DNA of 46,289 nt, taken from assembly GCA_903834765.1 (NCBI GenBank), contig CAILKE010000069.1, positions 1-46,289 on the forward strand. Direction: 5' to 3'. Shown piece by piece: positions 15,387 through 38,007 of this stretch. Under the pieces are notes generated by a model. The model was not told the DNA's origin. It saw only the letters and a program-made list of their open reading frames with translations, and searched no databases. Position 1 is the stretch's first letter; each line of letters begins with the position of its first letter. This stretch comes from an uncultured Bacteroidota bacterium. Lineage in GTDB: Bacteria; Bacteroidota; Bacteroidia; B-17B0; Aurantibacillaceae. A program made the position numbers and the translations under genes.

Positions 15387-16424
15387 TTAAAAATCAAAAA
15401 TGAGGGGCGTACCTTTTTTATAGTTTTTTTTAGAGATTTTCCCAATAATAGTAGTGTAATATTTTGGATGTAATCCATCGCCAGGCCTTATTACACGTAT
15501 ATTTTTTTCCGTAAATAATTCTCCTTCCTTAATGTCCTCAGAAACATATATAGATCGTTTAAAAAATACACTTTTCGTTTCAGCCTGTTGAACGCCATAT
15601 TGAACTTTTCCCAATGCTAAATAGGCTCTTTCTGTTTCTACAACTAATGCTTTTAATTCGTGTGGTTCAATCGAAAAAGCAGAATCAACACCACCATCTG
15701 CTCTATTTAATGTAAAATGTTTTTCAATTACACTTGCACCTAAGGCAACGGCTGCAATTGAAACGCCTATGCCCATTGTATGATCCGATAAACCGACAAT
15801 ACAATTATGTAATTGAGCTAAATGTGGAATTGTGTTTAAGTTTGTGTTTTCAGGTGTTGCCGGATAGGTACTCGTGCATTTCAAAAGTATGATATCCTTG
15901 CAACCAGCATTTCTTAAAACTCTTACGCTTTCATCAATATCAGCGATGGAACTAACTCCAGTTGACATTATTACTGGTTTTCCTGTTTTAGCAACTTTTA
16001 TTAATAATGGATGATGCGTGTTTTCAAAAGAAGCAATTTTATATAATGGCACATCTAAACTTTCTAAAAAATCGACAGCTGTTTCATCAAATGGAGAGCT
16101 GAAAGCAATCATTCCTTTTTCTTTAGCTCTATCAAATATGGCTTTGTGCCATTCCCATGGAGTATATGCCTCTTTATACAAATCATGTAACTCTTTCCCA
16201 TTCCATAAAGAGTTTACGTCTTTAATCGTATGAGCTCCCTTCATGGTAATAGTGTCTGCAGTATAAGTTTGTAATTTTAGAGCATGTGCCCCTGCCTCTG
16301 CCGCTGCATCAACCAATAATAGAGCGCGATCTAATGACTGATTATGATTACCACTCATTTCAGCAATCACAAATGGTTTGTGATTAACACCAATTATAAT
16401 ATTACCTATTTTTATATCATTCAT
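15387..16424 (-). CDS. pseI: Pseudaminic acid synthase
   Basis: 345 residues, usual length for PseI, with ATG at 16424 overlapping the pseH stop by one base. It is a NeuB-type TIM barrel: KPFVIAEMSGNHNQSLDRAL at 16-35, HALKLQTYTADTIT, the PseI-type LWNGKELHDLY segment, and IVGLSDHTMGIG. A C-terminal SAF/antifreeze-like domain (from about 285) contains KRSIYVSEDIKEGE. It condenses 2,4-diacetamido-2,4,6-trideoxy-L-altrose with phosphoenolpyruvate to give Pse. The other five pathway genes lie directly upstream, which makes PseI more likely than NeuB or LegI. Confidence 0.95.
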   Translation of the reverse strand: MNDIKIGNIIIGVNHKPFVIAEMSGNHNQSLDRALLLVDAAAEAGAHALKLQTYTADTITMKGAHTIKDVNSLWNGKELHDLYKEAYTPWEWHKAIFDRAKEKGMIAFSSPFDETAVDFLESLDVPLYKIASFENTHHPLLIKVAKTGKPVIMSTGVSSIADIDESVRVLRNAGCKDIILLKCTSTYPATPENTNLNTIPHLAQLHNCIVGLSDHTMGIGVSIAAVALGASVIEKHFTLNRADGGVDSAFSIEPHELKALVVETERAYLALGKVQYGVQQAETKSVFFKRSIYVSEDIKEGELFTEKNIRVIRPGDGLHPKYYTTIIGKISKKNYKKGTPLIFDF

Positions 16425-16972
16425 TATAATGTGCGATTATATATAGATTGTTTTAAATTTTCTTTTAATAGATCCCATTCATGTTTTAAAATTGCTAGAG
16501 CTACAACATCAAAATATTTTCCATCTTTTAAAATATGCTTTTTAAATAGTCCTTCTTGGTTGAATCCAAATTTTTCATGCATATGAATTACTTTTTCATT
16601 AAAGGAAAATACTTCGCACATAAGCTTATTAAATTTCATTGTTTCAAAAACATAATTTAGAATTGTGAATTCTACTTTTGAACCTATACCTGCACCTCTT
16701 ACCTCAGTATTCCCTATGTAAAATGCCCAACTGCAATGCTTGAAATTTTTTTTTATGTTATATATTGAAACAAGTCCTAGCTTTTTTCCATTATACTCAA
16801 TAAGCCAATACTTTTGAGAAGCATCTAGCTTTATCCTTTCAAACCATTTTTTTTGGTTTTCTGAAGAAATTTCTTCAGAAGTGTACATATACTGGCTTAC
16901 TTCTTTTGAGTTTCGCCAACGACGTATTAGTTCTAAATCTTCTTCCTTAATTTCAACTAAATTTATATCCAT
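16424..16972 (-). CDS. pseH: UDP-4-amino-4,6-dideoxy-N-acetyl-beta-L-altrosamine N-acetyltransferase
   Basis: 182-residue GNAT protein, ATG at 16972, sharing one base with the pseG stop and one with the pseI start. It begins LVEIKEEDLELIRRWRNSKEVSQYM, typical of PseH/RimJ-like GNATs, and contains NTEVRGAGIGSKVEF, the acetyl-CoA pyrophosphate-binding loop, and EKFGFNQEG near the end. It acetylates the 4-amino group of the PseC product using acetyl-CoA. Assignment rests on the GNAT fold plus its position between pseG and pseI. Confidence 0.93.
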   Translation of the reverse strand: MDINLVEIKEEDLELIRRWRNSKEVSQYMYTSEEISSENQKKWFERIKLDASQKYWLIEYNGKKLGLVSIYNIKKNFKHCSWAFYIGNTEVRGAGIGSKVEFTILNYVFETMKFNKLMCEVFSFNEKVIHMHEKFGFNQEGLFKKHILKDGKYFDVVALAILKHEWDLLKENLKQSIYNRTL

Positions 16973-18000
16973 TATATAAGATCTTTTACAATTTTTTTAA
17001 CTCTTCCACCAGATTTACCGTCAATTATTTGATTCTGTAAAAACAACATTTTATTAATTTCTGTTCGATTATCAATATGTTGCATAATAATCTCATTAAC
17101 TTCTTTAGAAGTGATTGTATGCAAATCACCTAAATCAAAAATTAATTGCTGGGATTTTAAATAATTATAGAGGTGTTTTTGATTTGATGCACTATACCCG
17201 GCAAAAATCAAAGAGTTCACAGCAATTAGTTCTAAGCAAGTTGTGCTACATGGGGCAAATGCTATATCACTTTTTTTCATAAGTTCAATCATTTTTATTT
17301 CTGATAAACCTGAGAAAAGCTGTATGTTTTTAGAAGAATGATTGATTTCAGATACCAAACTATTTTTATGAGGATATAACTCTCCAACTATAATGCTAAT
17401 TGAATTTATTTTTTTAATTGTTAATAATGATTTTAATATTTTAAGCGTAATGTTATGCTCATCACTTCCTCCAAATGTTATTAATGCACTAGAAATATTT
17501 GAATTTGTTTCTTTTTTTAGGGTGGCTTCATTAATAAAGCTCTGCCTTAGAAGAACATAATCTAAACCTGTATATAATTTTGTATAAGTTTCTTTTTTAT
17601 ATAAATTTATATTGACGTTTGGGGTATGATTAATAACAGCATCTGCAAACATATGTTCACATAGTAAATCATCAATGTAAATTAATTTTGCCTGAATTTT
17701 TTTGATATTTTTTTGATACAAAGAAGTAAATTTATATCCATCTAAAATGATTAATAATGAATTTGTATCATAGTTTGATTGTATCCACTGATGCTCCAAT
17801 TCAATAGAATAATCATTAGGAATATGTTTTATTGTAAAATGTTTCGGAATAACATTATCAATTTTACTTTGGGATTCTAGCAGAAATTCACAATCAAAAT
17901 CGTTGCATAGCATTTCGGCGATTCCAATACATCTGTATATATGACCTAGGCCAATTTTAATATCCCCATCTGTTCTGAATACAATTTTTTTTTTAATCAT
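16972..18000 (-). CDS. pseG: UDP-2,4-diacetamido-2,4,6-trideoxy-beta-L-altropyranose hydrolase
   Basis: 342 residues with ATG at 18000, overlapping the pseF 3' end by 8 nt. It is a GT-B-fold nucleotide-sugar hydrolase: FRTDGDIKIGLGHIYRCIGIA (8-28) with the conserved GxGHxxR, then SALITFGGSDEHNITLK and FAPCSTTCLELIAVN in the C-terminal domain, as in MurG-related PseG. It removes UDP to give the free sugar for PseI. Position and motifs agree. Confidence 0.94.
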   Translation of the reverse strand: MIKKKIVFRTDGDIKIGLGHIYRCIGIAEMLCNDFDCEFLLESQSKIDNVIPKHFTIKHIPNDYSIELEHQWIQSNYDTNSLLIILDGYKFTSLYQKNIKKIQAKLIYIDDLLCEHMFADAVINHTPNVNINLYKKETYTKLYTGLDYVLLRQSFINEATLKKETNSNISSALITFGGSDEHNITLKILKSLLTIKKINSISIIVGELYPHKNSLVSEINHSSKNIQLFSGLSEIKMIELMKKSDIAFAPCSTTCLELIAVNSLIFAGYSASNQKHLYNYLKSQQLIFDLGDLHTITSKEVNEIIMQHIDNRTEINKMLFLQNQIIDGKSGGRVKKIVKDLI

Positions 18001-18688
18001 TATTTGGGAATAGTAATGAATGTTTTAATTCTGCTAGTTTCCAATCAGTTTCGTTGTCTATATCCTGAACTTGTAATTCATCTAAAATAATGGAACCAGA
18101 GTTTTCAGTAAACACTTTTTTTTCTATTATAAAACTTTCTATATTTATCCAATAAAACTGTCCAGCATCATGATAAGCTGGTTCTAAATCTTGAGATCGT
18201 TTGTTTATATTTTCAGGCCATATCATGGCTGTTTTAGAATCATTTATTTTTAATGCTCTCAGTATTGGGTAAGAAAATGGGCAAACAGGAAAAACACTGT
18301 CAAATTTTTGATCAATTAATAATTTGTATGATTCTTTTAAAGATTGCTTAGTAATAAAAGGTGCTGTAGGATAAATGCAACAAGCGTTATCAAATTGTTT
18401 TCCTATTTTAGTTAAGTCATTTAAAACCTCTAATACCACATCAGCCGTTCCAGTATAATCATCAGCTGTTTGTTTACTTCTGATAAATGGTACTTGAGCA
18501 CCATAACGTTTTGCTACTTCTGCAATTTCATCATCTTCCGTTGACACCATTACATAATCAAATAAACCCGAATTTAAAGCAGTTTCGATTGAGTAAGCAA
18601 TAATAGGTTTTCCTAAAAATTCTTTGATGTTTTTTCGAGGAATACGCTTACTGCCTCCGCGAGCAGTTATGATAGCCAAATTAGCCAT
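17993..18688 (-). CDS. pseF: Pseudaminic acid cytidylyltransferase
   Basis: 231 residues, ATG at 18688, overlapping pseC upstream and pseG downstream by 8 nt each. The CMP-sugar synthetase signature ARGGSKRIPRKNIK is at 9-22, followed by FLGKPIIAYSIETAL and the DYVMVSTEDDEIAEVA strand. The PseF-like DAGQFYWIN block occurs in the C-terminal half. It activates Pse with CTP to CMP-Pse, the donor for the transferase. Confidence 0.95.
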   Translation of the reverse strand: MANLAIITARGGSKRIPRKNIKEFLGKPIIAYSIETALNSGLFDYVMVSTEDDEIAEVAKRYGAQVPFIRSKQTADDYTGTADVVLEVLNDLTKIGKQFDNACCIYPTAPFITKQSLKESYKLLIDQKFDSVFPVCPFSYPILRALKINDSKTAMIWPENINKRSQDLEPAYHDAGQFYWINIESFIIEKKVFTENSGSIILDELQVQDIDNETDWKLAELKHSLLFPNND

Positions 18689-19829
18689 TTAAAAAAGAGT
18701 TGATGGTGTCAATGACAAAATGTTGTTCTTCTTTTGTTAAGGTTGGATACATAGGCAAACTCAAGCAGCCTTGATAATAATTTTCCGAATTTACAAAATC
18801 ACCTTGTTTCCATCCTAAACTTTTATAATAGGGTAGGGTATGTACTGGTATATAATGTACCTGACAAAAAATATCCTTTGATCTTAAAAAGTCATACAAC
18901 TCTTTTCTATTATTTACTTCAATAATATATAAGTGGTAAGCATGTCCTTCAATCACTCCCGATTGTCCTTTAATGTGTTGATTTGTTTTAAAGGTATCAA
19001 AATAAGTTTGAGCAATTTCTCGTCTTCTTTCTATACCGGCATCAGCTCTTTTTAATTGAGAAGTTCCTAATGCAGCCTGAAAGTCAGTAATTCTGTAGTT
19101 ATATCCTAACTCTTGCATTTCGTAATACCAACCTCCATCATTTTGATGCATTAAATTTGAATCTTTGGTAATACCGTGTGTTCTTAGTTTAATAAGCTTG
19201 TTGTATAATGCTTCATCATTGGTAGTAACCATGCCACCTTCGCCGCAGGCAATATGTTTTACTGGGTGAAAAGAGAAGATTGCTAAATCAGCAAAATTAC
19301 TGTTTCCACAAAATTGCTTTGTTCCTTTACTATCTATAAAATACCCACCAGGCGCATGGCAAGCATCTTCAATAATCCAACAATTAAATTCATTGGCTAG
19401 TTTGCGAAATGCTTCCAAATTAACCGCATTTCCTGCAAAATCAACTGGTATTATACCTTGGAAATAACCCTTAGGGTGATTTTCTAATAATGCACGTACT
19501 TTCTTAATATCTAATAAATAAGTTTCAGGATCAATATCAGCAAAATATACTTCACCATCACAATATCTCACGCAATTAGCTGACGCAGCAAATGTAATTG
19601 GGCTTGTAATGACCCTTGAATCTTTGTTTACACCTAAAGCCAAGGCACATAAATGTAAGGCAGCTGTTCCGTTTGAAACAGCTACGGCATATTTACAACC
19701 AATATATTCAGCAAAGGCTTTTTCAAAGCTTGCAATTTCCGGACCTTGAGTTAAAAAATCAGAGGTTAAAGCCTTAACTACTGCATTAACATCTTCTTCT
19801 GTTATATTCTGTTTTCCGTATGGAATCAT
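18681..19829 (-). CDS. pseC: UDP-4-amino-4,6-dideoxy-N-acetyl-beta-L-altrosamine transaminase
   Basis: 382 residues, full length, ATG at 19829, 6 nt after pseB. It is a DegT/DnrJ/EryC1 aminotransferase: MIPYGKQNITEEDV opening, AVSNGTAALHL PLP-phosphate region at 50-60, IIEDACHAPGG at 152-162, and FSFHPVKHIACGEGG with PLP-lysine Lys191. It transfers an amino group from glutamate to C4 of the PseB product. MIPYGKQ.I and the neighbours favour PseC over other sugar aminotransferases. Confidence 0.95.
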   Translation of the reverse strand: MIPYGKQNITEEDVNAVVKALTSDFLTQGPEIASFEKAFAEYIGCKYAVAVSNGTAALHLCALALGVNKDSRVITSPITFAASANCVRYCDGEVYFADIDPETYLLDIKKVRALLENHPKGYFQGIIPVDFAGNAVNLEAFRKLANEFNCWIIEDACHAPGGYFIDSKGTKQFCGNSNFADLAIFSFHPVKHIACGEGGMVTTNDEALYNKLIKLRTHGITKDSNLMHQNDGGWYYEMQELGYNYRITDFQAALGTSQLKRADAGIERRREIAQTYFDTFKTNQHIKGQSGVIEGHAYHLYIIEVNNRKELYDFLRSKDIFCQVHYIPVHTLPYYKSLGWKQGDFVNSENYYQGCLSLPMYPTLTKEEQHFVIDTINSFLNG

Positions 19830-19835
19830 TTCTAA

Positions 19836-20846
19836 TTATGGTTTAAACGTTGGGTCAACGTGTTCTACAATTAATTGCCTTAAGCCTTCTACTGTTTCCC
19901 ATTCTGTGTTATTTTCAGAGGTATAGTGAAAACCCTGAGGAACTATGGCCGCATTGAAATGCTTGATGTACTCCGTCAAATTCCAATTGGTTACTTGAGG
20001 CAAAATCACATAATATTTTCCTAAATCATAGGTTGTAAAAGAATCCGAACTGGTAATCATTTCTTCATGAATTTTCTCTCCGGGACGAATGCCATTTATT
20101 CTGTGTTCACAATTAGGACCGATTGCCTTAGCTACATCCATAATTTTATACGATGGTATTTTTGGTACAAATAATTCTCCTCCCCAAGCTGAATCTAATG
20201 CATGTAGCACCATATCAACACCTCCTTTTAATGAGATATTAAAGCGAGTCATATTAGGATCAGTAATGGGTAATACGCCTTCTTTCTTTTTATTCAAGAA
20301 AAAAGGAATAACAGATCCATTAGATCCCATGACATTACCATAACGTACTACCGAAAATTTTAAATCTCTGCTGCCTTTGATATTATTAGCGGCAATAAAT
20401 AATTTATCGGATGTTAATTTGGTTGCGCCATATAAATTAATTGGAGCGCAGGCTTTATCAGTAGATAAAGCTACTACTTTGGAGACATTGGTTTCTAAAC
20501 AGGCTCTGATAACATTATCTGCCCCACCAATATTTGTTTTAACACATTCATCAGGATTATATTCTGCAATGTGCACATGTTTCATTGCCGCTGCGTGAAT
20601 AACGTAATCAATACCAGTAAATGCTCTTTTTAAACGATCCAAATCGCGAACATCTCCAATAAAGTAACGAATGGCTTTGTATTTGGAAGCAGGAAACTCT
20701 TGTTCCATTTGAAATTGCTTTTGCTCATCGCGAGAGTATATTACGAGTCGCTTTACATCGGGCCATTTCTCGAGGATGGTTTTAGTTAACTCTTTACCTA
20801 AGGAACCGGTGCCACCGGTTATTAAAATTGATTTGTGATTTAGCAT
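19836..20846 (-). CDS. pseB: UDP-N-acetylglucosamine 4,6-dehydratase (inverting)
   Basis: 336 residues, ATG at 20846. It is an extended SDR of the FlaA1 type: ILITGGTGSLGKELTKTI with the NADP-binding glycine motif at 11-18, HAAAMKHVHIAEYNP, STDKACAPINLYGATK with Asp130/Lys131 in the catalytic place and the YxxxK pair Tyr139/Lys143, and VRYGNVMGSNGSVIP. It starts the Pse pathway by dehydrating UDP-GlcNAc with C5 inversion. The single-domain length separates it from the large membrane-bound WbpM-type dehydratases. Confidence 0.96.
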   Translation of the reverse strand: MLNHKSILITGGTGSLGKELTKTILEKWPDVKRLVIYSRDEQKQFQMEQEFPASKYKAIRYFIGDVRDLDRLKRAFTGIDYVIHAAAMKHVHIAEYNPDECVKTNIGGADNVIRACLETNVSKVVALSTDKACAPINLYGATKLTSDKLFIAANNIKGSRDLKFSVVRYGNVMGSNGSVIPFFLNKKKEGVLPITDPNMTRFNISLKGGVDMVLHALDSAWGGELFVPKIPSYKIMDVAKAIGPNCEHRINGIRPGEKIHEEMITSSDSFTTYDLGKYYVILPQVTNWNLTEYIKHFNAAIVPQGFHYTSENNTEWETVEGLRQLIVEHVDPTFKP

Positions 20847-21917: not shown

Positions 21918-22897
21918 TGTGTAGATATTGATTGAATGAATATGTTGTCTTTTATATCTATGTCGGTAGTTTCTTTATTTAATAAAATGTCAAACGAGTG
22001 AATGTTTCCTGGATTTATATCAAATACAATATTCGTATAATCATCAGTTTGTATTTCTTTAATTTGATTGAAGTAGCTTATTTTAATTGCAGAATTACTT
22101 TTGATTTTTATAGTAATAGTTTTTTTACCTTCACTCTTTAAGTAGGCAGTAAATTGTTCCATTACATTGATGCCTTCCTCTTTTCTAGTTTCTAAAAGTG
22201 TTTTATAATTTGTATAAAAGCCTGAATAGAAATAAGGTAAATCTGTATCATTTAAATAATGGATACTTTCTTTTAATTCAAAATTTAATCTTTTTTTTAT
22301 CAATGTAGCAGGGCTACCAACCATAACAGAATAAGGAGCTACATCTTTTGTTACAACAGAATTTGCGCCAATAACACTTCCTTTACCAATTTTAACTCCA
22401 GACATTACTACCACGTTAATCCCAAGCCAGCAATCATCTTCTATGATTATTTTTTTTGAATGTTTTTTTGATAGTTCTTCATTAGTAAGAATCAATTCAT
22501 CTTGGTCTTTAATATAGTATTCGGGTTTGAAATTATAATAGTGTCTCCCAGAACTTAGGTATACATTTTGAGCAAAAACGCAGTATCTGCCAATATCAAT
22601 ATCACCTAATAAAATACATCGATCCTGTATAGAAGTATTAGCGCCTAATCGTATTTTTTGATTACTCACTCCTAACTCAACATTTCTACCGATATAATTA
22701 TTACCTTCTAATTCAATGACGCTATTATTTAAACATGTTAATATTGCTGATGGGTTAATATCGCAATTATTACCAATTAAAATGTTTTTATCAAAAGTAG
22801 TTTTGGCAGTATCCTCAGCTATTATTCTTTTTAAAGATAAATAATAAATTAGCTTGGTAGGCTTTTTTAATATTTTTGAAAGTAAGCGCTTAAACAT
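21914..22897 (-). CDS. Left-handed beta-helix acyltransferase with C-terminal extension
   Basis: 327 residues, ATG at 22897, overlapping Wzt by 8 nt. Residues from about 35 to 200 are hexapeptide repeats, ending in the maltose/xenobiotic-acetyltransferase pattern IIEDDCWLGINVVVMSGV and VIGANSVVTKDVAPYSVMVGSPA. It is probably an acetyl-CoA-dependent O- or N-acetyltransferase acting on a sugar. About 120 further residues follow the helix, rich in Ile/Thr/Lys and alternating in a beta-strand fashion. I do not recognise this domain, which most small acetyltransferases of this group lack. Confidence 0.82.
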   Translation of the reverse strand: MFKRLLSKILKKPTKLIYYLSLKRIIAEDTAKTTFDKNILIGNNCDINPSAILTCLNNSVIELEGNNYIGRNVELGVSNQKIRLGANTSIQDRCILLGDIDIGRYCVFAQNVYLSSGRHYYNFKPEYYIKDQDELILTNEELSKKHSKKIIIEDDCWLGINVVVMSGVKIGKGSVIGANSVVTKDVAPYSVMVGSPATLIKKRLNFELKESIHYLNDTDLPYFYSGFYTNYKTLLETRKEEGINVMEQFTAYLKSEGKKTITIKIKSNSAIKISYFNQIKEIQTDDYTNIVFDINPGNIHSFDILLNKETTDIDIKDNIFIQSISTQ

Positions 22898-24179
22898 TTT
22901 TTTCGTATACGCTATATGTAGTATTAAAATAACCTATATTTTGATGAGGGTCATCACTTGTTGGAATTATTAATAAAGAAGGGATATTTATATTACTATC
23001 TATGACATCATAAAAAAGTGTCGTATTTGTATTTCCAATAGCAAAATAGAGATCGTATTGTCCTGCTCTTAAATTTCCTTTAGGAATACAAATTTTAAAT
23101 TCCACAATAGTTCCTGTTTTTATTTGGTTTGTTGTAATATTAGTTTTTACATTAGTGATTACTTTTTCGGTGAGCGTATCTAAAAATGCCATATAAAAGG
23201 TCAATCCCTCACAAACCTCATTTGTAATACAACTAAATGCAAAATGAATATCTTCATCTGCTTTGTATGTCCAATTACTTTCATTTATTAATCCATCTTT
23301 AAAGCAACCCAATTTTTGAAAAGAGGCATTACCGCTTGTTCTATTTACTCGATCTTTTTTAGAAGTGTTTGCATTGAAGCGGAAATCTTTCATTAAGTCC
23401 ATATAGGTTTGAATCGATACACCAACTTCGTTAATTGAATGTAATTTGCCAGAGTCTAAAATAATTCCTTTTTGACAAAAGGCAGAAATAGCTTGAAGAT
23501 TGTGGCTAACAAACAAAACGGTTCTGCCTTCACCTTTACTTACATCTCCCATTTTACCCAAACATTTTTTTTGAAATTCCGCATCTCCTACAGCTAATAC
23601 TTCATCCACAATTAATATTTCTGATTCTAAATGGGCAGCAACAGCAAAAGCTAAACGGACATACATGCCACTGCTATAACGTTTCACAGGTGTATCAATA
23701 TACCGCTCTACGCCACTAAAATCAACAATTTCATCAAATTTCCTTTTGATTTCTTGTTTGGTCATTCCTAATATAGCTCCATTCAAAAATATATTTTCCC
23801 TTCCTGTTAATTCAGGATGAAAGCCCGTGCCAACTTCCAATAATGCAGCAATGCGTCCCTTCACTTTGATGTCACCAACGGAAGGTCCTGTAACGCGAGA
23901 TAATATTTTTAATAATGTAGATTTACCTGCTCCATTTCTTCCAATGATACCAATTGCTTCCCCTTGCTTAACTTCAAAATTAATATCTTTTAAAGCCCAC
24001 ACCAAATCGCTATTTCCTTTAATTGTTCTATCATTTGTCTCGCCAATTTTCAAATAAGGATCTTCTTTTCCCCTTACTTTATGATACCAACGATTAAAAT
24101 CGTTGGTGATAGTCCCGGTTCCAACTTGTCCTAATCGGTATTGCTTTCCTAAATTTTCTACTTTGATGACGGTACTCAT
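22890..24179 (-). CDS. wzt: Polysaccharide ABC transporter ATP-binding protein with C-terminal Wzt domain
   Basis: 429 residues, ATG at 24179. The ATPase has Walker A GRNGAGKST (80-88), signature YSSGM (168-172) and Walker B ILIVDEVL (188-195), plus the KDINFEVKQGEAIGIIG lead-in of polysaccharide exporters. About 170 extra residues follow the ATPase (from about 260), the size and place of the carbohydrate-binding domain of Wzt proteins that read a modified non-reducing end before export. With the Wzm-like gene 111 nt upstream it forms the inner-membrane exporter. Confidence 0.94.
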   Translation of the reverse strand: MSTVIKVENLGKQYRLGQVGTGTITNDFNRWYHKVRGKEDPYLKIGETNDRTIKGNSDLVWALKDINFEVKQGEAIGIIGRNGAGKSTLLKILSRVTGPSVGDIKVKGRIAALLEVGTGFHPELTGRENIFLNGAILGMTKQEIKRKFDEIVDFSGVERYIDTPVKRYSSGMYVRLAFAVAAHLESEILIVDEVLAVGDAEFQKKCLGKMGDVSKGEGRTVLFVSHNLQAISAFCQKGIILDSGKLHSINEVGVSIQTYMDLMKDFRFNANTSKKDRVNRTSGNASFQKLGCFKDGLINESNWTYKADEDIHFAFSCITNEVCEGLTFYMAFLDTLTEKVITNVKTNITTNQIKTGTIVEFKICIPKGNLRAGQYDLYFAIGNTNTTLFYDVIDSNINIPSLLIIPTSDDPHQNIGYFNTTYSVYEKNV

Positions 24180-24290: not shown

Positions 24291-25154
24291 TTACACGGTG
24301 TCCATAAATGATTTTTCAACTTTGTTAAAGATGATTACCGAAAAGAAAATGAGAATCAACATAAACCCAAAACCGTAGATTAACCAATATACATCAAAAA
24401 AACCACTACCTAAAAAAATGTATTTAAAGGCTTCAATAATAGATGTTAAGGGATTTAAAAGCATTAAGAATTTGACATTACCATTCATGCTAGACACAGG
24501 AATAACAACCGAACTACCATACATTAATAATTGAACACCAAATCCAATCAAAAATGTTAAGTCGCGATATTTAGTGGTTAACGATGAAATTAAAATACCA
24601 AATCCAAATCCTAATCCCGCCATCATAAATATTAATACTGGCAGCATCCACATTAATTGCCAGTGAGGTGTAACCTGATTGGAATATATTAAAAAGTAAA
24701 TCCAAATGCAGATAAAAATTAAAAGCTGTATTCCCAATTTAATCAAGTTAGATACTAAGACAGATAGGGGAATAATAAGACGTGGAAAATAAACTTTACC
24801 AAATACTCCAGCGTTAGCAATAAACGTATTAGAAGTTTTGTTTAAACAATCGGCAAAATAAGTCCATAATGTAATACCTGCCATGTAAAATAAAATGCCG
24901 GGAATGCCGTCCGTACTTATTTTGGCTATACTGCCAAATATAAAAGTAAAAGTGAGAGATGTAATAATTGGTTGTATAAAAAACCAAAGAGGCCCTAAAA
25001 TAGTTTGTTTGTATACAGAAACAAAGTCTCTTCGAACCAATAGCAACAACAAATCCCTATAAGCCCAAAGAGCGCCTAAATCTAGTTGATACCATTTATT
25101 TTTGGGTTTAATTATTAAGTCCCAGTGTTCGTTTTCAGGTTCAGGTATTCTCAT
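24291..25154 (-). CDS. wzm: Polysaccharide ABC transporter permease (ABC-2 type)
   Basis: 287 residues, ATG at 25154, directly abutting the epimerase stop at 25155. It has about six hydrophobic helices and the RDLLLLLVRRDFVSVYKQTILGPLW entry motif (split here by function: coupling region plus first helix) of TagG/Wzm/KpsM proteins. It forms the membrane channel for Wzt-driven export of an undecaprenol-linked polymer. The 111-nt gap to wzt (24180-24290) is longer than most in this operon and has no ORF. Confidence 0.94.
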   Translation of the reverse strand: MRIPEPENEHWDLIIKPKNKWYQLDLGALWAYRDLLLLLVRRDFVSVYKQTILGPLWFFIQPIITSLTFTFIFGSIAKISTDGIPGILFYMAGITLWTYFADCLNKTSNTFIANAGVFGKVYFPRLIIPLSVLVSNLIKLGIQLLIFICIWIYFLIYSNQVTPHWQLMWMLPVLIFMMAGLGFGFGILISSLTTKYRDLTFLIGFGVQLLMYGSSVVIPVSSMNGNVKFLMLLNPLTSIIEAFKYIFLGSGFFDVYWLIYGFGFMLILIFFSVIIFNKVEKSFMDTV

Positions 25155-26157: not shown

Positions 26158-26655
26158 TTAGTTAGCTAAAATTTTAATAATAGTTTTTGGTACTTTAATT
26201 CTAATGCTTTGCTTAATGCTATTTAACTCGATACTGATATAATCTTCGTTTTGAATACGGACAATTTTACCGGTTAAACCTTTCAATGGTCCTTGCGTAA
26301 TTTCAACATCATCACTCATTTTTAAATCGGTTACTTCCTCAGTTATATCATAACCTGTAAGTTCTATAGATTTTAAAATGTCTATTTCTGACTCTCTAAT
26401 ACTAGCTTCTGTGCCATTAAATTTAATGAAGCCTAAAATGTGTGGTGTGCGTAATATAGTTTCTTTGTCTACAAGATCTATTTTCACAAAGATATAACCA
26501 CTTAACATTGGGAATTCAATACGTTTTTTTCGGTCACTCCATTGTTGCATGCGTCTTGCAATCGGTGTGTAAGCTTCAATGCGCTGATCTATTAATTTAA
26601 GCACAATTTTTTTTTCGTGCCGTGCATTTACATATAAAGCGTACCAATGTTGCAT
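26158..26655 (-). CDS. UpxY/NusG-like transcription antiterminator
   Basis: 165 residues, ATG at 26655. An N-terminal NGN domain (WYALYVNARHEKKI at 4-17, then FPMLSGYIFVKID) is followed by a KOW motif (MSDDVEITQGPLKGLTGKIV). NusG paralogues of the UpxY type sit near the start of Bacteroidota capsule operons, travel with RNA polymerase and let it read through the long operon. It is the second gene here, with a hairpin-bearing 83-nt leader upstream. The start agrees with the usual 'M..WYALYV' opening. Confidence 0.93.
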   Translation of the reverse strand: MQHWYALYVNARHEKKIVLKLIDQRIEAYTPIARRMQQWSDRKKRIEFPMLSGYIFVKIDLVDKETILRTPHILGFIKFNGTEASIRESEIDILKSIELTGYDITEEVTDLKMSDDVEITQGPLKGLTGKIVRIQNEDYISIELNSIKQSIRIKVPKTIIKILAN

Positions 26656-29102: not shown

Positions 29103-29121
29103 AAAAAACCTTATTAAGCTA

Positions 29122-29129
29122 CAAATATA
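29122..29129 (-). promoter_or_regulatory. Candidate -7 box for the kinase/polysaccharide operon
   Basis: Reads TATATTTG on the minus strand, a full match to the Bacteroidota -7 consensus TAnnTTTG, about 20 nt before the GTG start of the tyrosine kinase gene. No good TTTG/TTG -33 element is seen at the right distance. The region is AT-rich, so chance is a real alternative. Confidence 0.4.
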
Positions 29130-29130
29130 A

Positions 29131-29138
29131 TATATTTG
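29131..29138 (+). promoter_or_regulatory. Candidate -7 box for the PID-CTERM gene
   Basis: Reads TATATTTG on the plus strand, one base away from the matching minus-strand box, in the 111-nt divergent intergenic region. It lies about 75 nt upstream of the PID-CTERM ATG. No clear -33 element. The back-to-back pair could allow joint control of the polysaccharide operon and the exosortase module. Confidence 0.35.
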
Positions 29139-29213
29139 ACACGATTTTTACCTATCAATTGCCGTTCTAAATATTTTTTTTATATTTACACATTCTAAAC
29201 TATATAATTGATA

Positions 29214-29432
29214 ATGCGCCTAAAGTTTATATTATCTGTTTTTTTCATTTCTTTTTTTACAGCTGTATGTTATTGTGCACCTCCAGCTCCTGGTGGCGGA
29301 GGTAAACCAGTATGTTGGCCACCACCTTGCGTGCCTATAGATGGAGGCATCTCTTTGTTAATAGTAGCAGGTGCAATATATGGTGGCAAAAAATTGTATT
29401 CTAAATCATCTAATAAAAAAACATTGCTTTAA
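29214..29432 (+). CDS. Small PID-CTERM sorting-signal protein (exosortase substrate)
   Basis: 72 residues from ATG at 29214; a longer reading from TTG at 29208 adds only two residues and is less likely. Residues 1-21 are a signal peptide. A short Pro/Gly/Cys-rich middle follows (APPAPGGGG at 22-30; two Cys at 34 and 39). Then come the PIDGG motif (41-45), a hydrophobic helix ISLLIVAGAIYGG (46-58) and a Lys-rich tail. This three-part tail is the PID-CTERM protein-sorting signal of Bacteroidota. Only about 20 residues remain between signal peptide and sorting motif. A hairpin terminator follows and then the exosortase gene. Biological role of this class is not established. Confidence 0.88.
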   Translation: MRLKFILSVFFISFFTAVCYCAPPAPGGGGKPVCWPPPCVPIDGGISLLIVAGAIYGGKKLYSKSSNKKTLL

Positions 29433-29439
29433 CTCTTTA

Positions 29440-29465
29440 ATCCCTGCTCCTAGCGGGGATTTTTA
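29440..29465 (+). terminator. Intrinsic terminator after the PID-CTERM gene
   Basis: Nine-base stem 29440-29448 with 29452-29460 (one G-U pair), 3-nt loop, then five T. It sits 8 nt after the PID-CTERM stop and 5 nt before the exosortase ATG. Partial termination here would give much more PID-CTERM transcript than exosortase transcript, fitting a substrate/enzyme pair. Confidence 0.8.
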
Positions 29466-29469
29466 ATAT

Positions 29470-30000
29470 ATGCTTGATAAAATCGTCAAAAACAAGTTTT
29501 ATTTTTTTATTTTAAAAGCGAGTGCGTTGTATAGCTTTTTATATATTTTTTATGAATTCTATATTAAAATATATACGAACATCGATCAATTATTTATTCG
29601 GAAAATAATCATTGTTTGCACCTTTATTCTTCAAACAATGGGTTATAAAACCTTTGCCAGTAAAGAAATAAACGATTTTCAGGTATTTGGTGTAGATGGT
29701 TCTAATGGTGTTTGGATTGGTGGCGGCTGCAATGGGATTACGTTAATGTTTTTGTTCGCTATTTTTGTGATAGCTTATCCCGGCAGAATCAAAAATAAAT
29801 TATGGTATTTACCTCTAGGTATTATTTTAGTTAACATCATCAATTTCATTCGTATTGTTGCTTTATCTTTACTATCGCTATACGCTCCTTCTTATCTTGA
29901 GTTTAACCACACGTATACGTTTACTTTTATAGCATACAGCATTGTGTTTGCCTTATGGATGTTGTGGGTCAATAAATTTTCAAAATTGGATGTTGATTAA
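29470..30000 (+). CDS. Exosortase/archaeosortase family protein
   Basis: 176 residues, ATG at 29470. It is polytopic and carries the exosortase catalytic set: Cys87 in GGGCNGI, Arg128 in NFIRIVAL and His147 in FNHTYTF. The size matches the short Bacteroidota exosortases (XrtF/XrtX-like). These enzymes cut the PEP-CTERM-like tail of secreted proteins at the membrane and probably pass the protein to another anchor. The PID-CTERM gene next door is the obvious substrate. Its stop overlaps the next start by one base. The subfamily (possibly the one called XrtX) cannot be fixed without a model search. Confidence 0.92.
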   Translation: MLDKIVKNKFYFFILKASALYSFLYIFYEFYIKIYTNIDQLFIRKIIIVCTFILQTMGYKTFASKEINDFQVFGVDGSNGVWIGGGCNGITLMFLFAIFVIAYPGRIKNKLWYLPLGIILVNIINFIRIVALSLLSLYAPSYLEFNHTYTFTFIAYSIVFALWMLWVNKFSKLDVD

Positions 30001-30476
30001 TGAAAATATGGCTAAAATACCTCTTATTTTTGTTGTTATTTGCCATTTTAGGTTTTAGCAGGGAGTTTATTTTTGTTAATCTCAACGCCCAACTTTTTGA
30101 CTTTTTTTATGGTCACGCAGACTTCAAATTACCGACTAGTTTGAGTTATTTTGCCAGTTTGAGTTACGATAGTTTATACTATTCAAAATATATATTAACT
30201 ATTGGATATTACTTGGCTTATTTTGCGGTTACCTATTTTTCGGTAAAAATAATTTGTGTTGATAAAAAATATACTCTTTGGATTATTTATATTTATGGTT
30301 TATTACTACTATTGTCAGGTATTTCTATGACCTATAATTATATTTTCAATAGCAACTTAGATGGTGATGAATACACCTTTAGCAGGTGGTTAATGGGTAT
30401 TGCCCAATCGCCTCTGGTCGCTTTTTTTATGATTGCCGCTAATAAATTATACAAAAAAATACATACACAACCTTAA
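30000..30476 (+). CDS. Exosortase-associated small membrane protein
   Basis: 158 residues, ATG at 30000 in a TAATG overlap with the exosortase stop. It has four hydrophobic segments (about 5-19, 64-82, 94-112, 130-150) and a [16 protein letters not shown] stretch after the first. Short membrane proteins with a conserved Arg-Glu after helix 1 are known next to Bacteroidota exosortases as 'exosortase system-associated' proteins. Identity is inferred from this and from translational coupling. Its job, perhaps a subunit or chaperone of the sortase, is not known. Confidence 0.7.
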
Positions 30477-31865: not shown

Positions 31866-33476
31866 TTATTTTTCTTTAGTAAGCATCATTTGTTTTTCCA
31901 AAGAGTAGGTATCGTTTTTACCTACTTTTAAATCTACTTTTTCTTCTCCTGATTTATATCCTTTTTTCGAAACTTTAAGAGTGTATGTTACATCTCCTGG
32001 CAGCGTAATGAAATACTCTCCGTTTTCATTCGTTACGGTTGATGCTACTATAGCACCTGCAGCATCTAATATTTTTATATCTACAGCAGATAAGCCACTG
32101 CCTTCATGCGCATCACGAATAATGCCTTTTAAAATACTTAACCCACTAGTTGTTTTCTTTTGTCCACCCTTTTCAAGGATGCCGAAATTACTAAGGTCTA
32201 CTTTATAAATATCACTTGCTCCTAAGCCGCCTTTTCTATCACTTGCTATATAAGCTGTTTGTTCATCAGCACTCACAACTAAAGGTCCATCGCTGCTAAT
32301 AGTATTAATTGGATAGCCAATGTTAACAGGTTTTGTCCACTTTCCATTTTCAAAGACTGTTTTAAAAATATCATAAGAGCCCATAGACCCTTTTCCATTA
32401 GATGAGAAGAATAACGTTTTGGCATCTGGTGCAATAAATACGCCTACTTCGTCAAACTCAGAGTTTACTTCTCCCCCTAAATTTACAGGTTTGCCCCATT
32501 CTGTTTTAGAGATACGAGTTACCATCCAAATATCAGCATTTCCAAATCCACCCTTACGTTCACTAATAAAATATAAGGTTTTGCCGTCAGGCGAAATACA
32601 TGCACCGCCTTCCCAATAACTTGTGTTTATTGGTTTCCCCATCGGTTCGGGCGTTTTCCATTTATTACTAACTACTTTGGATACAAAAATATCTCCACCA
32701 CGAGATTCAACATCTCTCACATCATTTTTATAAATGTAAATTTGTTTTCCATCGGGCGATATACTTGTACAAGCATCATGAGCATCTGTATTAACATTAC
32801 CAGGAACTGATTCCGCATCAGACCATTTTTTATTAATCGTATCCCAATTAGAAATAAAAATGTCTTCAAAATAACTGCCATCTCCTTCTACATCTACTGG
32901 AGAGTCCGTCGTTTCTGGTCTACGAGACGTGAACACAAGTTTTTTTCCATCTGCACTGATACAGGGTGTTTTATCAGCAAATTTTGTATTAATAGCTGTA
33001 CCCATATTTTCAATTTTTACATTGATTGGTATTGCCATTAATTTTTTAGCATTATCACATTGACTGATGTATAAGTCTAAATCTTCCTCTTGCGCTTCTT
33101 TGGCGCTTGCAGTTGTTTTATAGATGTTTAATTCCGTTAATGCGTCATCTATTTTTTCTTCTGATAAATATATTTTACCCATTAATAAATGGGCTTCGGG
33201 TTTCACATCTATTTTCGTTGCGATTGATTTTTTGAGAGTTTCCGTGGCTTCTTCATAGCGTTTTAATTCGAATAGACACTTACCAATATAATAAAGAACA
33301 GTCCCATCTTCTGGATTTTTTTGCAAAACTTCTTTATAAATGTTAAGTGCACCTAAATATTGTCCACCAAATAATTTTTGTTTTGCTAATACCATTTTTA
33401 CTTGATCACCTGCATCCATAGCATGCATGTTTGATAGGAAAGCAAAAAAACAAAATGTCGTAAATAATTTTCTCAT
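31866..33476 (-). CDS. Secreted TPR/PD40 beta-propeller protein with carboxypeptidase-regulatory-like domain
   Basis: 536 residues, ATG at 33476. Signal peptide at about 1-19, TPR-like helices at 25-140, five PD40-type propeller repeats (e.g. ISPDGKTLYFISERKGG, IAPDAKTLFFSSNGKGS) at 165-420, and a carboxypeptidase-regulatory-like beta-sandwich at about 448-530. This order resembles PorE-like periplasmic proteins of Bacteroidota tied to type IX secretion and gliding, but the C-terminal OmpA peptidoglycan-binding domain of those is absent. The mature protein is probably periplasmic or surface-located. Function is not established. Confidence 0.82.
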   Translation of the reverse strand: MRKLFTTFCFFAFLSNMHAMDAGDQVKMVLAKQKLFGGQYLGALNIYKEVLQKNPEDGTVLYYIGKCLFELKRYEEATETLKKSIATKIDVKPEAHLLMGKIYLSEEKIDDALTELNIYKTTASAKEAQEEDLDLYISQCDNAKKLMAIPINVKIENMGTAINTKFADKTPCISADGKKLVFTSRRPETTDSPVDVEGDGSYFEDIFISNWDTINKKWSDAESVPGNVNTDAHDACTSISPDGKQIYIYKNDVRDVESRGGDIFVSKVVSNKWKTPEPMGKPINTSYWEGGACISPDGKTLYFISERKGGFGNADIWMVTRISKTEWGKPVNLGGEVNSEFDEVGVFIAPDAKTLFFSSNGKGSMGSYDIFKTVFENGKWTKPVNIGYPINTISSDGPLVVSADEQTAYIASDRKGGLGASDIYKVDLSNFGILEKGGQKKTTSGLSILKGIIRDAHEGSGLSAVDIKILDAAGAIVASTVTNENGEYFITLPGDVTYTLKVSKKGYKSGEEKVDLKVGKNDTYSLEKQMMLTKEK

Positions 33477-33586: not shown

Positions 33587-34459
33587 ATGAGCACTATAGG
33601 ATTTTATTTAGCGTTACCGTTTCTTTATTTGATATCTATACTTCCTTTTCCTTTATTTTATTTGGTTTCGGATGGTATTTACCTATTATTATACCGTATA
33701 ATTGGTTATCGAAAAAAAGTAGTTTATCAAAACCTTAAAAATTCGTTTCCCGAAAAAAAACACGAAGAATTAAAAAAAATTGAAAAGCAATTTTATCATT
33801 ATTTAGTGGATTTGTTTTTAGAAACACTTAAAACACTTACCATATCAAAGAAAGAAGCCATTAAACGCTGTAAACTTAATTCTAAAGCAATATTACTGTT
33901 TAATGAACTATACACTCAAAAACAATCCTGTATATTGGTTATGGGACATTTTGGAAACTGGGAATGGGCAGGTAATACTTTTAGTTTAATCAATCAACAA
34001 CAATTGTATGTGATCTATCATCCTCTCACTAATAAGCATTTTGATAAACTGATGTATGATATGCGTACCCGATTTGGTTCTAAATTGTATGCTATGAAAG
34101 ACACTATGCGCGGTATGATTAGTAATAGAAATGAAATAAATGCGACGGCATTTATTGCAGATCAAACGCCTTCTCCCGAAAATGCTTATTGGACAACCTT
34201 TTTAAATCAAGATACTCCCGTGTTTTGGGGTACCGAAAAAATTGCTCAAAAATTAAATTATCCAGTTGTATATGTTACTATTAATAGAGTTAAGCGCGGC
34301 TTTTATGAGGTAAATGCAGAAATATTGGTTAAAGAACCCAAGAACACTAAAGAAGGTGAAATATCGGAATTACATACTCGCCAATTAGAAAAAGACATTA
34401 AAGCTCAACCCGAAATTTGGTTATGGAGTCATAGGCGTTGGAAACATAAAAGAAAATAA
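33587..34459 (+). CDS. LpxL/HtrB-like lysophospholipid acyltransferase
   Basis: 290 residues, ATG at 33587, divergent from the TPR/PD40 gene. One N-terminal hydrophobic segment is followed by the HTRB/LABLAT-type HX4E motif, His121 to Glu126 in GHFGNWEWAGN, and ATAFIADQTPSPENAYW, typical of lipid A late acyltransferases. It adds a secondary acyl chain to a lipid A precursor at the inner membrane. The single-paralogue identity (LpxL versus LpxM) cannot be fixed. Confidence 0.9.
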   Translation: MSTIGFYLALPFLYLISILPFPLFYLVSDGIYLLLYRIIGYRKKVVYQNLKNSFPEKKHEELKKIEKQFYHYLVDLFLETLKTLTISKKEAIKRCKLNSKAILLFNELYTQKQSCILVMGHFGNWEWAGNTFSLINQQQLYVIYHPLTNKHFDKLMYDMRTRFGSKLYAMKDTMRGMISNRNEINATAFIADQTPSPENAYWTTFLNQDTPVFWGTEKIAQKLNYPVVYVTINRVKRGFYEVNAEILVKEPKNTKEGEISELHTRQLEKDIKAQPEIWLWSHRRWKHKRK

Positions 34460-34522
34460 CGCTGTTTTTTTATGAACACAAACAATTAACGATGAAATGT
34501 TACGTTCTATCTAGCTATAATG

Positions 34523-34552
34523 TTTCATATATAAAGTAAAAGGATATATTTG
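34523..34552 (+). promoter_or_regulatory. Candidate promoter for the flippase-Wzz-Wzz-ligase operon
   Basis: A TATATTTG box at 34545-34552 fully matches the TAnnTTTG -7 consensus, with TTTC at 34523-34526 as a one-mismatch -33 element, 18 nt apart. It lies 24 nt upstream of the flippase ATG, in the 117-nt gap that separates the operon from the acyltransferase gene. Confidence 0.5.
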
Positions 34553-34576
34553 CCTTTTGCTTGATTTAAATAAGAA

Positions 34577-36019
34577 ATGCATCAAAAAAAGTTTGTCACA
34601 AATATTGCTTTTTTAATAGTACTGAATCTATTAATCAAACCTTTTTGGCCATTAGGGATAGAACCTGCGGTTCAAAATGCGGTTGGAAATGCGGGTTACG
34701 GTGAGTATTTCATTTTATTTAATTTTTCCTTTCTTCTCAATATTATTTTAGATTTTGGTGTAACAAATTTTAATAATAAAAACATAGCTCAAAACAATCA
34801 TTTATTGACAAAACACTTTAGTAGCTTATTTTCATTAAAGTTGGCTTTGGGTGTTATCTATTTAGCAGTTACTATTTTATTAGGTTTTTTCATGGGTTAT
34901 GAATACCGTTATATGAAACTCCTTTCTATATTGGCAGTTAATCAATTTTTAATTAGCATGATCGCTTATTTGCGCTCTAATTTGTTAGGCTTACATTTAT
35001 TTAAAACAGATAGCTTTGTTTCGGTTGCTGATAGAGTTATTATGATTGGCTTGTGTTTGATGCTCTTGTTTAGATGGTTTGGTTTACAAATAGACATCAT
35101 GACTTTTGTATATGCTCAAACCCTAGGTTATGTATTAACTGCTGTTATTGCTTTTTCAACCGTTTATTTTAAAACAGATCATTTTAAATTTACGTGGAAC
35201 TGGCCTTTCAGTTTAATGATATTGAAACAAAGTTTTCCTTTTGCTGTTTTGGTTTTATTAATGACATTCTATAACCGCTTAGATGCTGTTATGATAGAAC
35301 GTATATTACCCGCTGGTGAAGGCACAGAGAAAGCCGGTATCTACGCTAAAGCCTTTCGATTACTAGATGCTGGTAATATGATAGCATATTTATTTTCGGT
35401 GCAATTACTACCTGTTTTTAGCCGTATGATTAAATACAAAGAAAATGTGGAGCAATTGGTTAAATTGGCTTTTATTCTTTTAGTAACACCTGCGCTTATT
35501 ATATCTGTAGGCTGCTTTTTTTATGCGAATGAATTGTCGTCACTCATTAATCATGGTGTTACTGATTCGGCTACAGAGTTTAGTATTTTGATGTTTTGTT
35601 TTACGGCCGTTTCTACCACTTATATTTTCGGAACGCTTTTAACTGCTAATGGAAATTTAAAGCAATTAAACACCATGGCTATTATTGGAATTTGCATCAA
35701 TTTAATTTTAAACTTCATTTTAATTCCTCATTACAAAGCTATGGGAAGCGTCTTTAGCAGCCTTATTACACAATTTTTTACGGCAGGCATTCAAATTTAT
35801 TTCGCCTGCAAAATATTTAAGTTTAAAATGAACGTTCGGTTAATATTAGCTTTGGTTATTTTTATTGTTGGCATTGTTGCTTTTAATTATTTTTCCAAGT
35901 CCTTTACTTCCAATTGGATGATTAATTTCGTGATTATGAGTGTGTTTTGCGGGTTATGGGCTTTTGCTTCAGGATTAATTAGTATAAAATCAATTTTCAG
36001 ATTTATAAAGTATAAATGA
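34577..36019 (+). CDS. wzx: Wzx-like polysaccharide flippase (MOP superfamily)
   Basis: 480 residues, ATG at 34577, with 12-14 hydrophobic segments and the usual opening of a membrane helix followed by a GNAGYGEYFILFNFSF segment. YNRLDAVMIERILP in the middle (helix 7 region) and EKAGIYAKAFRLLDAGN match polysaccharide-type MOP flippases. It should move a lipid-linked oligosaccharide repeat across the inner membrane. The Wzz- and ligase-like genes directly downstream support this over a MATE or MurJ role. Confidence 0.88.
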   Translation: MHQKKFVTNIAFLIVLNLLIKPFWPLGIEPAVQNAVGNAGYGEYFILFNFSFLLNIILDFGVTNFNNKNIAQNNHLLTKHFSSLFSLKLALGVIYLAVTILLGFFMGYEYRYMKLLSILAVNQFLISMIAYLRSNLLGLHLFKTDSFVSVADRVIMIGLCLMLLFRWFGLQIDIMTFVYAQTLGYVLTAVIAFSTVYFKTDHFKFTWNWPFSLMILKQSFPFAVLVLLMTFYNRLDAVMIERILPAGEGTEKAGIYAKAFRLLDAGNMIAYLFSVQLLPVFSRMIKYKENVEQLVKLAFILLVTPALIISVGCFFYANELSSLINHGVTDSATEFSILMFCFTAVSTTYIFGTLLTANGNLKQLNTMAIIGICINLILNFILIPHYKAMGSVFSSLITQFFTAGIQIYFACKIFKFKMNVRLILALVIFIVGIVAFNYFSKSFTSNWMINFVIMSVFCGLWAFASGLISIKSIFRFIKYK

Positions 36020-36039
36020 TAAAATAGTATATTTGAGGG

Positions 36040-37068
36040 ATGGACGAATCAAACATTAATAACGAATCTATAAAATTATTAACGAAAATGTATAAGTGGC
36101 GTAAGCCCTTAATTATCGTGACTCTTTTAGCTGCAGCGATTTCAATTGTGTGCTCATTTTTAATTTCCCCACAATATTTAGCAACTGCAGTTGTTTTCCC
36201 TGCTCGTACCTTTTCGGTATCTAAATTACTTGTAGAACAAAACATCGGTAATCAAGAAGATTACATGGAGTTAGGCGATGAGGATGATGCTGAAAAATTA
36301 TTACAAATATTAAATTCAACTGAAATACGTAAACGAATTGCTGATGATTATAATTTATGGGAAAATTGGAAAATAAATAAAGAAGGTGATTATGCTGATC
36401 ATTATTTGAAATTGAAATGGGCTGAGATGGTTTCGTTTAAGCGAACTGATTACGTTTCTATAAGAATTGATGTTTATGATTATGTTGCAGCTAGAGCGGC
36501 TAAAATAGCTAATTCTATTGTCAGTTATGCAGATTCTGTTAAGTTTAGAATGACTAAAGAAGTTGCAAAACAAGCCCTTACTATTGTTGAAGAAGAATAC
36601 GCTAACACCATTACACGCATAACGGAGTTAGAAGATAGCTTACAAAAAATACGCGTATTAGGTGTTTTGGATTATAAAGCAGAAATAAATGCTTATTCTA
36701 AAGCTATGGCAAAGGCCGTATCTAAAGGTAATCAATCTGCTATTACTAATTTACAAGTAAAGTTAGATAACCTTAATAAATATGGTTTAGCATACGAAGG
36801 TGTTTTTCAAAATTTAAGAAAGTACCGTTTAAAATATCCTTTGATTAAACAAAAATATGACGAGGCTGTAGTTAATTACACTAAACATTTACCATCTAAA
36901 TTTATAGTTGATAAAGCAATTGCAAATGAAAAAAAGGCTAGACCTGTCCGTGCATTGATAGTTATTATCCCTACAATATCGGCATTTTTACTTGCATTAT
37001 TATATCTAATGTTTTCAGATAAATTGATAGAAATTAAAAAAAAAATAGTTATTCAATCCAAAGAATAA
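36040..37068 (+). CDS. Wzz-like chain-length determinant protein (first of two)
   Basis: 342 residues, ATG at 36040, 20 nt after the flippase stop. TM1 is at about 23-44 (LIIVTLLAAAISIVCSFLIS), followed by the SPQYLATAVVFPAR beta region, a coiled-coil arm (about 180-290), and TM2 at about 306-326. There is no cytoplasmic kinase domain, so it is a polysaccharide co-polymerase of the Wzz class rather than Wzc. The GVLDYKAEINAYSKAM segment and the Lys/Arg-rich stretch before TM2 recur in the next gene, which marks the two as paralogues. Confidence 0.85.
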   Translation: MDESNINNESIKLLTKMYKWRKPLIIVTLLAAAISIVCSFLISPQYLATAVVFPARTFSVSKLLVEQNIGNQEDYMELGDEDDAEKLLQILNSTEIRKRIADDYNLWENWKINKEGDYADHYLKLKWAEMVSFKRTDYVSIRIDVYDYVAARAAKIANSIVSYADSVKFRMTKEVAKQALTIVEEEYANTITRITELEDSLQKIRVLGVLDYKAEINAYSKAMAKAVSKGNQSAITNLQVKLDNLNKYGLAYEGVFQNLRKYRLKYPLIKQKYDEAVVNYTKHLPSKFIVDKAIANEKKARPVRALIVIIPTISAFLLALLYLMFSDKLIEIKKKIVIQSKE

Positions 37069-37085
37069 AGAAATTAAAAGAACAC

Positions 37086-38006: not shown

Positions 38007-38007
38007 T

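Follow-up and report, generated by a model that had tools for sequence, protein, structure and literature searches.

The mini-gene of an exosortase module in the window (the whole 46,289-nucleotide stretch of DNA analysed here, from an uncultured bacterium of the family Aurantibacillaceae) belongs to a set of tiny exosortase targets that, outside this family, are repeatedly encoded beside T9SS adhesins. In the other families a T9SS cargo gene is located directly 5' of the mini-gene and on the same strand in 43/68 cases, as compared with 16/741 background genes. Our preferred reading, to which we give a probability of roughly 45%, somewhat short of even odds, is that the exosortase XrtX produces, in an exopolysaccharide setting, a short mature peptide that serves a T9SS adhesin of the RemA/RemZ type as anchor or adaptor.

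The module is a slightly divergent, otherwise ordinary member of an already named NCBIfam system, XrtX / PID-CTERM (NF046081, NF046080 and NF046082). All three window genes match these models and a small single target is located upstream, as in the named system; the divergence lies in the XrtX-associated membrane protein, which fails its NCBIfam cut-off by score, and in XrtX, which is at its own cut-off. The features of the module and of the polysaccharide genes beside it are given in Table 1.

Table 1. Positions of the module and of neighbouring polysaccharide genes in the window.
Feature	Position	Strand	Evidence
Precursor (72 aa) of the PID-CTERM mini-protein, target of the exosortase	29214..29432	+	ORF; NF046080 43.7 bits, cut-off 26
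Predicted signal peptide, residues 1-21	29214..29276	+	Cleavage point by eye; pattern recurs in relatives
Conserved core CWPPPC, residues 34-39	29313..29330	+	Comparison of mini-proteins in XrtX loci
Sorting motif PIDGG, residues 41-45	29334..29348	+	Sequence; PID_CTERM model match
Hydrophobic C-terminal helix and Lys-rich end of mini-protein	29349..29429	+	Sequence; PID_CTERM model match
Exosortase XrtX, 176 aa; C87, R128, H147	29470..30000	+	NF046081 E 4.7e-50
XrtX-associated membrane protein, 158 aa, all-helical model	30000..30476	+	NF046082 32 bits, E 8.7e-8, below cut-off 75
Intergenic region common to the divergent mini-gene and Wzc gene	29103..29213	.	ORFs, sequence
Wzc-like polysaccharide co-polymerase / tyrosine autokinase, 787 aa	26739..29102	-	TIGR01007 152.2 bits, cut-off 108.05
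UpxY family transcription antiterminator	26158..26655	-	NF033644 126.9 bits, cut-off 100
ABC-2 (Wzm-like) permease	24291-25154	-	PF01061 68.2 bits, cut-off 26.9
Wzt-like ATPase	22890-24179	-	None of the listed NCBIfam cut-offs reached
Pseudaminic acid genes PseI, PseH, PseG, PseF, PseC, PseB	15387..20846	-	Six of six over NCBIfam cut-offs

The original prediction, made from the sequence of the window, described a 72-residue protein with a signal peptide, a PIDGG motif and a Lys tail, next to an exosortase with Cys87, Arg128 and His147 and a coupled small membrane protein, and all three genes are indeed present at the positions given. The mini-gene begins with ATG and encodes a Pro/Gly/Cys stretch and a hydrophobic helix; the PID-CTERM layout of signal peptide, motif, helix and basic end can be followed by eye, and the PID_CTERM model spans residues 40-64. 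Relatives show the same pattern, with a hydrophobic stretch, then A/Q/G and after it Pro. The CWPPPC core falls outside the residues matched by the model. It is kept in 43/44 distinct mini-proteins from the Aurantibacillaceae and in 23/34 from other XrtX loci, while two cysteines precede the motif in 44/44 and 30/34, respectively. In 67 sequences, chosen because they carry CWPPPC[VIM]P[IV]DGG, the codons for Cys, Pro, Asp and Gly vary synonymously throughout, Trp apart. Given this variation and the retention of the core in nearly all mini-proteins of the family, we conclude that its conservation goes beyond chance.

The core can also be traced where the model does not reach. Eight genomes combine an XrtX over cut-off with the lack of any PID_CTERM match at E 0.001. 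Inspection by eye reveals a mini-gene within 900 bases upstream of XrtX in four of them and none there in the other four. Three of the four mini-genes identified by eye keep CWPPPC, followed by PVDGG, PVNGG or PADNG, and the remaining one differs in its core and carries PLDSN. The spacing between CWPPPC and the motif is fixed in most mini-protein sequences. A small conserved core at a fixed distance from the motif, and the great constancy of Wzc as a neighbour in the window's family, would suit a mechanism in which a short Pro/Cys peptide, released by XrtX, signals to or gates the Wzc export machine; such a mechanism nevertheless leaves both the pairing with T9SS adhesins and the multiple mini-genes per genome unexplained, and we consider it quite unlikely.

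A target with almost no mature body had been called odd. It turns out to be the rule, as all 68 PID_CTERM matches over cut-off in the window's family lie in open frames of 117 codons or fewer, stop to stop. A 995-codon frame contains one of the listed class matches; every other match listed falls in a frame of at most 194 codons. The 995-codon exception to the tiny-target rule (genome G188, contig C1, 2167132-2167203) has a PID_CTERM match over cut-off. These frame lengths come from the model matches; our collection of 102 distinct mini-proteins is restricted to frames below 260 codons and cannot speak to body size. Mini-genes were found by a motif rule in frames of fewer than 260 codons, which misses divergent forms. 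A plasmid search with the mini-protein as query found nothing.

The window's exosortase scores 169.8 bits against the XrtX model NF046081, or 170.1 bits with its frame neighbours, for a cut-off of 170; the next best model, XrtF (TIGR04128), gives 84.6 bits, below its cut-off of 90. Model-based assignment of the subfamily, proposed earlier, therefore places the enzyme far closer to XrtX than to XrtF and at the edge of XrtX membership. Cys87, Arg128 and His147 (codons at 29728-29730, 29851-29853 and 29908-29910), which we take to be the catalytic residues of the enzyme, are three of 12 columns that are invariant in 65 aligned relatives. The predicted model of XrtX is helical (mean pLDDT 91.7). 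The gene for the membrane protein shares a single base with the stop codon of the exosortase gene. Lys63 and Pro138 of the encoded protein are invariant in 49 aligned syntenic relatives, and its predicted model has a pLDDT of 95.4. Because it is syntenic and alignable with these relatives yet scores below the cut-off, we regard it as a divergent relative of NF046082 and not as a member by cut-off. Fold searches with XrtX and with its membrane partner returned no PDB match at E < 0.001. A profile search of XrtX against PDB sequences gave a single match at E 0.96, which was taken as chance. The constant coupling with the membrane partner, together with the tail-anchored layout of the mini-protein, would also fit an uncut protein that acts as a tail-anchored periplasmic helper with XrtX as its scaffold. 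The invariant Cys, Arg and His of XrtX, which are of catalytic type, would then be needless, and we find this arrangement very unlikely.

The pairing of the exosortase with one dedicated tiny target, as originally envisaged, is borne out in the genome from which the window derives. The general model TIGR04178 identifies one exosortase, and the whole-genome search for further PIDGG tails that had been called for yields one PID_CTERM match over cut-off, the next being at 15 bits, below cut-off. Within the family, PID_CTERM is matched in 74/87 genomes at E 0.01 and in 68/87 over cut-off, one match each, and the mini-gene is directly upstream of XrtX in 71/77 genomes with an XrtX match (count compiled by hand). 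Of the 295 class genomes, an XrtX-like enzyme is found in 172 and PID_CTERM in 132; 127 have both, 45 XrtX-like only and five PID only, the XrtX-like set taking in XrtF-type enzymes without PID targets. The genome lists behind the class and genus counts were compiled by hand. In one genus (g163), a PID_CTERM match adjoins XrtX in G350, and none stands next to the XrtX genes of six other genomes (G346-G349, G351 and G352); of these six, G349, G351 and G352 have a match on a different contig, which exceeds the cut-off only in G349.

Several known systems resemble this module in part. PEP-CTERM / EpsH (XrtA) has a tripartite C-terminal signal, an exosortase-family membrane enzyme and EPS genes. 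PEP-CTERM genomes usually carry many larger targets, whereas the window's system has one tiny target. The XrtF system of F. johnsoniae (Fjoh_1448/1449) likewise combines an exosortase with a small associated protein, and its model matches the window's XrtX, although below cut-off; a passage of PMC10936215 leaves the XrtF targets in F. johnsoniae to future research. Myxosortase / MYXO-CTERM and MrtJ / JDVT-CTERM share a C-terminal tag and a cysteine near the cut site, and MrtJ is described, in part of PMC11980579, with a single target gene alongside. Both of these enzymes belong to a different family (CPBP intramembrane proteases).

The minus-strand neighbours of the mini-gene start, in turn, with the Wzc-like gene, the UpxY-family antiterminator, an epimerase, the ABC-2 permease and the Wzt-like ATPase. 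The module had been described as divergent from a polysaccharide operon containing Pse genes, and this description holds, with a Wzc-like first gene and PseB, C, F, G, H and I all over their cut-offs. A divergent Wzc gene lies within 1 kb of the mini-gene for 42/44 distinct mini-proteins of the window's family. A Wzc homologue is present within about 10 kb of XrtX in 49/50 loci of the family and in 27/40 loci from the rest of the class, as compared with 0/20 random control stretches, three of them short. The expected linkage between exosortase and polysaccharide genes is thus supported. The outcome that had been named as a refutation, the same module with no polysaccharide genes nearby, is borne out in part, in that 13/40 class loci lack a Wzc homologue in the stretch examined (some stretches being short), and the tie to polysaccharide is accordingly real but not universal.

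Other elements around the module are noted here. Window 33587-39447, on its other side, contains a gene resembling lipid A acyltransferases and, as a further set for a surface glycan, genes of Wzx-like (34577), Wzz-like (36040) and Wzy/O-antigen ligase-like (38008) type, all of which exceed their Pfam cut-offs. A gene beside the module (window 31866-33476, minus strand) encodes a TPR/PD40 protein with a carboxypeptidase-regulatory-like domain that resembles T9SS PorE, far below the PorE cut-off. On the Wzc side of the shared intergenic region, TATATTTG (window 29122-29129, minus strand) resembles the consensus of the Bacteroidota -7 element.

These surroundings raise the alternative that XrtX joins the peptide, as a cap or an anchor, to the exopolysaccharide made by the divergent Wzc/Wzm/Wzt genes or to its lipid carrier, the adhesins being incidental. 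The recurrence of Wzc beside XrtX and its absence from the controls favour this alternative, as does the absence of an adhesin gene adjoining the mini-gene in the window's family, and a link between exosortases and EPS genes has long been described (in part of PMC1569441). The class loci without a Wzc homologue count against it, as do the mini-genes away from XrtX, 22/35 of which come after adhesin genes. We allow this alternative a minor chance. The tiny substrate had been proposed to be attached to a surface glycan or lipid made by the flanking genes. Beyond the family the strongest partner signal comes not from the glycan operon but from the gene of a T9SS adhesin immediately 5' of the mini-gene, and in this respect the proposal is not supported as worded.

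That signal was obtained in two sets of loci. A cargo with a T9SS C-terminal signal (CTD), as detected with a profile seeded from the cargos themselves, is encoded directly 5' of 21/35 mini-genes in class XrtX loci and of the same 22/35 at loci away from XrtX, the latter 35 including two from the window's family, both without an adjacent cargo. Fisher p-values against the 16/741 background (genes of the same loci, these cargos excluded) are 3e-22 and 1e-23, which overstate the significance because the genomes are related; in control stretches the corresponding background is 16/267. Forty stretches (L232-L271) were picked by hand among the PID_CTERM matches listed, and six of the stretches with PID matches (L238, L250-L253 and L259) have no mini-gene by the motif rule and therefore stand outside the adjacency counts. 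The gaps between mini-gene and cargo are mostly below 120 bases. Mini-gene/cargo adjacency does not depend on the presence of T9SS across genomes.

The pairs come from 22 family codes (hand count), and several genomes contain more than one: five cargo/mini-gene pairs are found in four stretches of G240, three in G058, and two each in G188, G138, G186 and G125. In the XrtX loci of the window's family, none of 48 mini-genes has an adhesin gene next to it (0/48), and no PID-type small frame was found 3' of the adhesin gene in the 31 family loci examined. This separation would be expected if adhesin, mini-protein, exosortase and EPS genes were clustered as a shared biofilm regulon, with no physical tie between mini-protein and adhesin, and the functions encoded are of biofilm type throughout. 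Such a regulon would hardly account for the one-to-one pairing of cargo and mini-gene that recurs within single genomes, nor for the one region that most of the cargos have in common and that control cargos lack, and we judge it unlikely.

The cargos share this region, termed A3, of about 430 residues located just before the C-terminal signal. When an A3 profile was run against PDB sequences at E 0.1, the only matches were the F. johnsoniae T9SS type A adhesins RemA (8gl6_D, E 8e-49) and RemZ (8gl8_D, E 3.2e-43). To our knowledge, no PID-CTERM partner is known in F. johnsoniae. No Pfam or NCBIfam model extends across A3 in the cargos scanned (for L240, the best of six repeat stretches), L168 excepted; L168 has SprB and PKD repeats in the stretch, and its place in A3 is doubtful. 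The control stretches contain 17 CTD proteins with a length of 450 aa or more, and A3 was absent from all of them. The possibility that all T9SS cargos carry A3 was rejected, given 0/17 in the controls and one A3 protein as against 132 CTD matches in the window's own genome. At XrtF-type loci (L017-L026), an A3 cargo was present in 1/10 stretches.

A3 was then compared with XrtX-like enzymes across the 295 class genomes, with at most six candidates scored per genome, so that absences may be over-called. The region is present in 184/295 genomes; 164 have both, eight XrtX only, 20 the region only and 103 neither. When the 30 genomes contributing to the profile are excluded, the corresponding numbers are 134, 8, 20 and 103, and at the genus level they are 88, 4, 8 and 56. 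Part of this co-distribution may only reflect the presence of T9SS across genomes. In the window's family, A3 is found in 80/87 genomes, in one to five copies. G339, a near-complete genome of the family, has A3 without XrtX or PID; this genome and the 20 class genomes with the region only count against our preferred reading. XrtX is interrupted by in-frame stops in two genomes of the family (G301, contig C14, 11448-11942; G332, contig C111, 22633-23115); both lack A3, as compared with 3/75 of the others, the numbers being small and assembly error possible.

The window's own genome encodes exactly one A3 protein (contig C3, 34107-35321, E 8.9e-68), unlinked to the module; its frame has 842 codons, and a signal peptide can be made out by eye. 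Its tail matches the cargo-seeded CTD profile (E 4.2e-10), is not listed for TIGR04183, has no Pfam model over cut-off, and reaches 18.7 bits against the type C T9SS signal NF033708, below the cut-off of 40. The adhesin of genome L169, used as a plain query in this genome, gave two C-terminal matches only, and thus the A3 region profile was needed to find the genome's own adhesin. The window's own genome also has one SprA, and the T9SS type A signal is matched there 132 times at E 0.001, with 129 of the matches listed exceeding the cut-off.

In the mechanism that we propose, Sec would export the 72-residue precursor, and once the signal peptide had been cleaved off, a body of about 20 residues, rich in Pro, Gly and Cys, would remain on the outer side of the inner membrane, retained there by the C-terminal helix. 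Cutting at the PID motif would be the work of XrtX, through Cys87, Arg128 and His147, with its coupled membrane partner, and the peptide would probably be passed to a lipid or glycan acceptor. The matured peptide could then serve as anchor or adaptor for a T9SS-exported adhesin of the RemA/RemZ type, for which the A3 protein on contig C3 is the candidate in this organism, and the adhesin would thereby be fastened either to the envelope or to exopolysaccharide linked with Wzc. A more elaborate version has two sortase-type reactions in series, in which XrtX at the inner membrane makes a peptide-lipid or peptide-glycan with the short Pro/Cys peptide and a surface T9SS sortase joins the RemA-type adhesin to it, the mini-protein being the covalent acceptor in Bacteroidota without the A-LPS of Porphyromonas; we regard this version as a long shot.

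Published work on F. johnsoniae offers points of comparison for the anchor or adaptor role. Overexpression of RemA causes cell aggregation through a galactose-containing EPS, according to part of PMC8481357. As reported in sections of PMC10936215, deletion of xrtF or of its partner gene results in much less biofilm and abolishes zorbs, and among nine mutants tested colony spreading was lost only in the sprA mutant. Loss of biofilm with spreading kept points to adhesion, not the gliding motor, as the process involved, and concerns XrtF, not XrtX.

Among open-licence PMC papers, PID-CTERM was absent from those listed, only four mention exosortase together with type IX secretion, and the searches showed no pairing of a mini-target with RemA-type T9SS adhesins; this pairing is the part of the analysis that is worth following. 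Taken across many genomes, the observations suggest that large, sticky surface proteins, which aid biofilm building, have the tiny target as their partner or anchor. If the mini-protein does partner RemA/RemZ-type adhesins, it would join exosortases and T9SS, which have so far been treated mostly apart, and could show how T9SS adhesins of this type stay attached to the cell in bacteria other than Porphyromonas.
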